From a virus: DNA of 27,874 nt. Location of the stretch: positions 1-27,874 of the IMG/VR virus record IMGVR_UViG_3300009147_000022; one strand, 5' to 3'. Position 1 is the first letter of the stretch, and every line of letters begins with the position of its first letter. The notes under the pieces are model-generated. The model ran no database searches. It was not told where the DNA came from and saw only the letters and a list, made by a program, of their open reading frames with translations. The translations under genes were made by a program, and so were the position numbers. Positions 21,605-22,714 of this stretch are shown here, piece after piece.

Positions 21605-22714
21605 TCATTGGTGTGGATCAGGTGGTCGCTGGTTTCCCCCTCTGCGGGCACGCCGACGGCGCCCCGGAGCAGGGGGATGCTGTTGATCGGCTCCCGACCC
21701 GATCCCGTCCCGTCCCGTCCCGGCGATCCGTGATCCGCCAGTCAGGTGATTCGGCGGATCCAGTGGATCGGCGGGGCGGGAGCGGGCGGGTGGGGTCGGT
21801 GTGCGCGGGGGCCCGCCGGGTGCGGGGTCGCGGTGCGTGTGCGGAGAGGCGCGCGGGTTCGCGGGCCGCTCCGTCGGCGCGGGATCCGCCCGGCTGGCGG
21901 GCCGCGCGGATGTCGCTGCGGGGCGCGGGGTCCCGCCGGCTGCGGGGTCGCGGGGCGCGGGATCCACCTGGGTGGCGGGTCGCGGAAGCGCGGGGTCCCG
22001 CTGGCTGCGGGGTCGCGGAGATGGCGCGGGATCCGGCCGGGTGCCGGGTCGCGCGGGGTCGCTCGGTGTTACGTGGTGGCCGTGCTTGGCGAGCAGGTCC
22101 ACCGTGGTGCTGCTGTAGTACGGATCGGCCGGCACCGGCAGCAGCGGATACCGCTCGTCGGCCGCCGGGTCGTCCCGACGTCCGGCGTTGCAGGCCCGGC
22201 ACGACACCACCAGATGCCCAGATGACGTCGCGGCCTGCCCGGGCGGCCGGTGATCATAGGTCCCTCCGCGTCCTCCCTTGCGGTCGTTCCATTGCACGAC
22301 GACGCCGCAGTAGCGGCAGCCGTCGCCGTCGCGTAGCCGCACCGGCACGACGAGGCCCGGGGTGCGGCGGTCCTTGTCCCGCTGCCGCTCCCAGTCCAGC
22401 TCCGCGCGGAGCCGGATGTGCACGAAGTCGGAGTCGGCGACGATCAGCCAGCCCGGCTGCCCGCCGACCGTCGTCGACGACCAGTAGCCGGCGCGCTCGG
22501 CGACGTCGGCGAGCGCGCGCCAGTCGGCGACGCCGGCGTAGGTGGCGGCCGTGCCCTCGTCGACGAAGTAGTCCGTGTTGTACGCCGCGCTGCTGATCGC
22601 GCAGCGCATGACGAACCCGAACACTTCGTTGACCAGGCGCGGGTCACCATCCACTGCGGGGCGCAGCACCACCGGGTGCATCGCCGCCGTGTCCGAGACC
22701 CGCGCCCAGGGCAA
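21605..22714 (-). CDS. Winged-helix replication-initiator-like domain fused to HNH nuclease
   Basis: The start chosen is TTG 22714 behind AAGGAGG (369 aa); GTG 22744 has no ribosome site. Residues 1-115 resemble phage replisome-organiser N-terminal domains: LPWARVSDTAAMHPVVLRPA, VNEVFGFVMRCAISSAAYNT, then WRALADVAERAGYWSS and GWLIVADSDFVHIRL. Residues 130-180 are an HNH-type nuclease: CRYCG (C133, C136), TYDHRPPGQ (D154, H155), VSCRACNAGRR (C172, C175). The last 150 residues are Pro/Arg/Asp-rich low complexity encoded by degenerate 30-bp repeats. It may act in replication initiation or DNA processing. Confidence 0.85.
   Translation of the reverse strand: MPWARVSDTAAMHPVVLRPAVDGDPRLVNEVFGFVMRCAISSAAYNTDYFVDEGTAATYAGVADWRALADVAERAGYWSSTTVGGQPGWLIVADSDFVHIRLRAELDWERQRDKDRRTPGLVVPVRLRDGDGCRYCGVVVQWNDRKGGRGGTYDHRPPGQAATSSGHLVVSCRACNAGRRDDPAADERYPLLPVPADPYYSSTTVDLLAKHGHHVTPSDPARPGTRPDPAPSPRPRSQRDPALPRPATQVDPAPRDPAAGGTPRPAATSARPASRADPAPTERPANPRASPHTHRDPAPGGPPRTPTPPARSRPADPLDPPNHLTGGSRIAGTGRDGIGSGADQQHPPAPGRRRRARRGGNQRPPDPHQ
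21803..22053. repeat. Degenerate 30-bp repeats within the HNH gene tail
   Basis: Six related 30-bp units are visible on the plus strand at 21803-21832, 21877-21906, 21923-21952, 21955-21984, 21988-22017 and 22024-22053, each of the form gcgcggg(a/g)tcc...ggctg(c/g)ggg(t/c)cgcg. From the second unit on, versions with ggatcc and with ggtccc alternate. A partial unit lies near 21851. Spacing (74, 46, 32, 33, 36) is not always a multiple of three, so units are read in different frames. The minus strand encodes the Pro/Arg/Asp-rich tail of the HNH protein. Confidence 0.8.

Follow-up and report, generated by a model that had tools for sequence, protein, structure and literature searches.

The origin of phage lambda combines iterons, which are direct repeats with internal dyad symmetry, with an AT-rich stretch. 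This origin is located inside gene O (PMC7157519). In extrachromosomal mycobacterial prophages, an origin has been proposed either directly ahead of the initiator gene or within it; the RepA product of this gene is related to the mycobacterial plasmid RepA of pMAB23, pCLP and pMF1; the authors found no repeated motifs in the prophage region examined (PMC7157519). The RepA of Cluster A mycobacteriophages was considered as experimental support for the case described here and dropped, being related to plasmid RepA by the authors' account (PMC7157519). A search of the literature on actinophage origins within initiator genes found no direct precedent, and the repeat strings gave no hit concerning phages when sought in open-access papers. 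To our knowledge, origins are unannotated in most sequenced actinobacterial phages. Tandem repeats in gp50 of the Brevibacterium aurantiacum phages AGM1-AGM16 were reportedly described by de Melo et al. in Environ Microbiol in 2020 (doi 10.1111/1462-2920.15113, cited in PMC9331655).

The window analysed here, a stretch of 27,874 nucleotides from an IMG/VR virus record, contains a gene that resembles the lambda origin in holding dyad-symmetric direct repeats inside the gene for an initiator-like DNA-binding protein, the initiator status of which we infer from homology. Unlike the product of gene O, the window protein combines HNH with an extended disordered tail, and the repeats lie in the part that encodes this tail. 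Where lambda has its AT-rich stretch, the window gene has a GATC box and a G-rich (GGGWC)n array. An AT-rich unwinding stretch was looked for and none was found, and no part of the window exceeds the local GC of about 0.75. For this reason we do not assign the element to the lambda type; the proposal is that it works like the lambda origin. The repeats are the variable part, predicted to form hairpins, of a conserved piece of intragenic DNA, and most likely mark where the virus starts to copy its genome.

Two other groups of genes invite comparison. The phrog_2447 initiators, such as TZGordon gp54, Appa gp42 and Florinda gp87, share a related winged helix and the array inside the gene. They differ in that most are without an HNH domain, the array runs antisense in a (RPDPT)n linker and the flanking repeats are other ones; the array is a feature seen in many phrog_2447 members and lies outside the definition of the family. 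AGM gp50 belongs to the same family as the window gene and has repeats at the same tail position with a copy number that varies among phages, but its units are 198 bp long, in frame and of other sequence.

Host gene and encoded protein

The host gene (21605-22714) lies on the minus strand, which corrects the initial annotation, and encodes 369 amino acids. Its likely start is the TTG at 22714, preceded by the Shine-Dalgarno sequence GGAAGGAGG, while a GTG at 22744 is less likely. The protein consists of a winged helix (about residues 8-100), an HNH domain (about 120-180) and a disordered basic tail. It matches phrog_26098 (E 1.6e-73) and phrog_15463, named 'HNH endonuclease' (E 2.3e-66), and gives no match to the family model of phrog_2447, 'replication initiation protein'. 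Profile comparison by hhalign aligns residues 3-121 with phage replication-initiation proteins at a probability of 96% and E 5e-9, which bears out the earlier view that the gene carries an initiator-like winged helix. Judged from homology, the winged-helix and HNH protein probably serves these phages as their initiator.

An AlphaFold2 model of the core is confident (pLDDT 94.6, pTM 0.82) and was used instead of the full-length model, which is poor (pLDDT 56.5), with a low-confidence tail modelled as disordered. Structure searches with Foldseek and VIA yielded no strong match: the winged helix matched only the common winged-helix fold, and the best HNH match, the nicking enzyme 4h9d, had a Foldseek probability of 0.90 but an E of 0.13. 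In 57 sequences the HNH Cys pairs C133, C136, C172 and C175 are invariant, as are D154 and N176, and H155 is kept in at least 90%, so that both the zinc Cys pairs and the DH...N motif are in place. Two relatives have an HNH motif that looks degraded. In Poushou it reads DS for DH and the array is kept; in Juicebox a zinc Cys is lost and the array is absent.

Dyad-symmetric units in the gene tail

The initial annotation had described six degenerate 30-bp repeats at 21803-22053 that ignore reading frame. Tandem Repeats Finder (TRF) and a repeat search confirm six degenerate units of 28-30 bp at 21804-22052. TRF calls a 32-33-bp array at 21918-22053 with a score of 140 and scores a 65-bp array of two units better, at 197; the repeat search returns five 31-nt copies at 74-87% and a looser sixth copy. 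The range first proposed does contain the repeats, but the feature as a whole reaches further, to about 21685.

On the coding (minus) strand each unit is a dyad of the form GCGAC-arm(5)-NNCCR-arm'(5)-NNNCGCG. Unit 1 (22025-22052) reads GCGAC CCGGC ACCCG GCCGG ATCCCGCG and unit 2 (21989-22016) GCGAC CCCGC AGCCA GCGGG ACCCCGCG, both with all five arm positions paired. Unit 3 (21956-21983; GCGAC CCGCC ACCCA GGTGG ATCCCGCG) pairs at four of five positions, the remaining pair being G-T. Pairing is again complete in unit 4 (21924-21951; GCGAC CCCGC AGCCG GCGGG ACCCCGCG), unit 5 (21878-21905; GCGGC CCGCC AGCCG GGCGG ATCCCGCG) and unit 6 (21804-21831; GCGAC CCCGC ACCCG GCGGG CCCCCGCG). Three arm types occur (CCGGC/GCCGG, CCCGC/GCGGG and CCGCC/GGCGG), and complementarity extends to 29 of the 30 arm positions (p = 0.017 when arms are permuted among the six units). 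When folded as single-stranded DNA, all six units are predicted to form the same two-stem hairpin, with modest z-scores for single units (-0.9 to -2.5).

Start spacings of the six 28-nt units along the coding strand are 36, 33, 32, 46 and 74, and three of these five are not multiples of three, in keeping with what had been noted at the outset. The codon phases of units 1-6 are 2, 2, 2, 1, 2 and 1, so that units 4 and 6 are read in a phase other than that of the rest. The alternation of GGATCC and GGTCCC versions also holds from the second unit on, counting from 21804, where the first unit has GGGCCC in place of either; it results from the 65-bp two-unit duplication together with the arm type of each unit. 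The tail of the window gene contains 35 repeated 10-mers, compared with a mean of 5.7 and a maximum of 20 in 2000 synonymous-codon shuffles, and the repeats therefore exceed the needs of the encoded protein.

A covariance model was built from 12 units, the six of the window and six from three relatives (L004, L018 and L051). Among 94 other loci (630 kb, outside the model set) it finds 46 matches at E < 0.02; these sit in 11 relatives, all in the tail of the same gene and all on the coding strand. The arms covary in these relatives, with 23 two-sided pair changes against 4.8 +/- 1.8 after shuffling, in an alignment that was fitted to the covariance model and is biased towards it. A direct comparison of arms in the independent loci gives 70 of 80 positions matched where permutation gives 53.3, and none of 5000 permutations reaches 70. 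Units occupy more than one codon phase in seven of the ten independent relatives with multiple copies. In tails without the window unit, a general excess of hairpins is weak (261 vs 208, with a core coding control of 218 vs 187), and hairpin iterons are therefore claimed only for the set that shares this unit.

Box and pentamer array downstream of the units

Beyond the repeats, the window gene contains two further elements on the minus strand. A GATC-rich box (21725-21772) is a divergent match to a block, CAGATCC...GGATCTGGA, that is seen in relatives. It is followed by a pentamer array (21693-21721), GGGACGGGACGGGACGGG then ATCGGGTCGGG, which fits the pattern G3N2G3N2G3N2G3 and is the only such array in the window. 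A possible hairpin, GATCGG-GTCGGGAG-CCGATC, comes after the array, at 21685-21704.

By protein search, 157 loci were gathered from named phages, IMG/VR and GTDB genomes; they form 99 distinct tail clusters, 98 of them with a closed tail. The gene is found in phages and prophages of Arthrobacter, Gordonia, Rhodococcus, Brevibacterium, Corynebacterium, Actinomyces and others; when named phages were searched at the DNA level for close relatives, only the core of the HNH gene gave matches, at 68-73%. The tails have little protein sequence in common but one DNA layout, in the order variable repeats, CAGATCC...GGATCTGGA block, (GGGWC)n array and, usually, a basic C-terminus. Relatives with the same protein tail and no DNA-level repeat had been named at the outset as counter-evidence; what the tails have in common is instead DNA elements, their protein sequences being different.

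The array, scored as (GGGWC)2+GGG, is present in the gene tail of 81 of the 98 distinct relatives, whereas a synonymous-codon null gives a mean of 2.6 and a maximum of 7, and on the same strand it occurs only twice in 621 kb of flanking DNA. All three codon phases are used (37/23/21), and array mismatches show no excess at third codon positions. A GGATCTGGA-type box often precedes the array. In 19 tails a GGATC(C/T)(A/G)GA box lies exactly 15 nt ahead, with hits in two codon phases, and when 85 tails are aligned on the start of the array, their consensus shows GGATCtGGA some 15 nt ahead of the array and CAGA near position -32. A clear array is missing from 17 of the 98 tails, including those of Rothia phage Spartoi and Corynebacterium phage Juicebox. 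The Spartoi tail contains five copies of a repeat with CTCCGA-GGCA-TCGGAAG, and a duplicated segment that takes in a basic stretch. A hairpin after the array is not universal, a stem of at least 6 being found in 29% of tails against 16% under the null, a modest enrichment. In Aoka and JanetJ the array is directly followed by a long hairpin, the inner stem of which differs between the two phages and yet stays paired.

These comparisons bear on whether the conserved entity is the protein, that is, a disordered Gly/Arg- or Pro-rich tail. Many tails do end in a basic stretch and that of the window is modelled as disordered, but the different codon phases yield different peptides (SGSAGSGRVG, QDLDVPGRVG and SGISGSGR), and third codon positions of the array have no surplus of mismatches, which makes a protein-level constraint extremely improbable. 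The several codon phases, the synonymous null and the recurrence of the window unit in distant relatives uphold the earlier suggestion that the units conserve DNA and not protein.

Slippage or duplication in a neutral, disordered tail under low constraint is another possible source of the repeats. Even the paired arms could arise without selection, since quasi-palindromes are known to mutate through template-switch repair, which can keep arms matched. The 65-bp two-unit duplication in the window speaks for such a process, as do repeats of unrelated sequence in many relatives' tails and the variable number of 198-bp copies in the same gene of the Brevibacterium AGM phages, from four in AGM1 to eight in AGM15. 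The initial annotation had offered slippage as the simple alternative. It accounts for the gain of copies, both 65 bp and 198 bp, but not for the conservation of unit, box and pentamer array, which keep their position in relatives whose proteins are 35-57% identical, in several codon phases and far above the synonymous null. The pentamer array also occurs antisense in another family of initiators, as described below, and a purely neutral origin is considered unlikely.

The array in ordinary initiator genes

A scan of IMG/VR for (GGGWC)4GGG, with a small scan for the box, gave at least 132 sites. Among the matches listed, 93 of 132 lie in ORFs that match replication-initiator HMMs or in loci of the winged-helix/HNH family; some of the other 39 look unrelated to replication. 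The family 'replication initiation protein' (phrog_2447) is matched by 37 of the 68 non-family ORFs with an array among the matches listed, with others of these ORFs matching further initiation or primosomal families. In named phages, Gordonia phage TZGordon carries the array in gp54, next to a gene for a DnaB-like helicase, and Microbacterium phage Appa in gp42, where a DnaB-like helicase is encoded two genes further on; in Mycobacterium phage Florinda the initiator gene with the array is gp87. The array is absent from the initiator genes of Megiddo, prophiT46-1 and Huphlepuff. The initiator linkers of Megiddo and Huphlepuff read PLPTPLPTPLPT and PNPNPNP, respectively, and are without GGGWC arrays, which suggests that short tandem DNA repeats of another kind occupy this position.

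Several further loci merit mention. The ORFs of L169, L264 and L248 match both the HNH family and an initiator HMM, with the array antisense in two and sense in one, and possibly form a bridge between the two types of initiator. In seven loci (L163, L184, L186, L195, L230, L263 and L265) a (GGGWC)4 array lies in a short ORF or in DNA that appears not to code for protein, and nothing points to an initiator; L195 has three sites.

In 49 of 50 ordinary initiator genes among the matches listed, the array is antisense and encodes a (RPDPT)n linker. This orientation matters for the view that the repeats act in RNA, as transcript hairpins for translation control or attenuation or as an RNA target of one of the phage's own proteins. 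Covarying arms and identical predicted hairpins are expected of a structured RNA, and the units are always on the coding strand; however, all six window units fold as single-stranded DNA too, and with the array on the opposite strand in ordinary initiators, the array part therefore cannot be one RNA motif. An RNA-level element is considered unlikely.

The position of the gene also raises the prospect of a packaging or recombination site, such as a terminase recognition sequence associated with cos or pac. The window gene is about 2.3 kb from the HNH/terminase genes, and in several named phages its counterpart is near the annotated genome end. The distance to the end varies, however, and other genes intervene, while the arrays of TZGordon, Appa and Florinda are mostly far from the terminal few kilobases, at about 34 of 45 kb, 26 of 39 kb and 50 of 59 kb, respectively, and lie in initiator genes. 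Such a site is therefore very unlikely.

A putative intragenic origin

It is near certain that the repeats, box and array have a function at the level of DNA. Since genes with an initiator-type winged helix conserve, as DNA, hairpin iterons together with a positioned box and the G-rich array, the 30-bp units are probably lineage-specific dyad iterons of a replication origin inside the probable initiator gene. The parts of this origin would follow one another along the coding strand, iterons, GATC-rich box and (GGGWC)n array, all in the 3' part of the gene. The initiator, or a partner, would assemble on the iterons and the box; the neighbouring G-rich array, which fits a G-quadruplex pattern, would then open with its G strand held single-stranded, and the replisome would load there. 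The HNH domain may contribute by nicking or processing the DNA. Binding, opening, initiation of replication and any role of the HNH domain at the element are what we infer from this arrangement.

If this is correct, the combination of an array in an initiator gene with the box and hairpin iterons would provide a searchable signature of origins and a compact segment that can be cloned. It would also assign a role to a gene annotated as 'HNH endonuclease' or hypothetical, and account for its repeat-rich tail of variable length.

A more far-reaching version, which appears rather unlikely, is that of a separate class of actinobacterial origin, in which a winged-helix/HNH initiator reads hairpin iterons and nicks at or near a G-quadruplex array that is shared with initiators lacking HNH. 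The iterons would then be recognised as single-stranded or extruded DNA, with the whole origin within the initiator's own gene, and the array in opposite orientation would serve the HNH-less initiators, thereby constituting a shared actinophage origin module.

The initial annotation had proposed iterons for the initiator encoded by the same gene. The gene does carry an initiator-like winged helix, but a role of this domain as the reader of the repeats is not supported. Co-evolution of the winged helix with iteron type was sought and rejected: similarity of the domain, the recognition helix or the wing does not track a shared repeat (p 0.2-0.56). Similarity of the adjacent linker helix, the HNH domain and the post-HNH part does (p <= 0.005), an association that fits either linkage or another binding partner. 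No GC-skew switch was found at the element in the complete phages Aoka and xhp1, nor in the window.

Terminase, portal, protease and capsid genes of the window are on the same strand as the host gene, on the other side of which are genes for a clamp-like protein, a methylase and an SNF2-type helicase. The ORF at 23803-24522 (minus strand) has a strong match to phrog_12598, 'RusA-like Holliday junction resolvase', and a weak one to phrog_947, 'DNA polymerase processivity factor'. The RusA label looks doubtful for this product, since annotations of a comparable gene in the Gordonia relatives vary between sliding clamp, FtsK and RusA.
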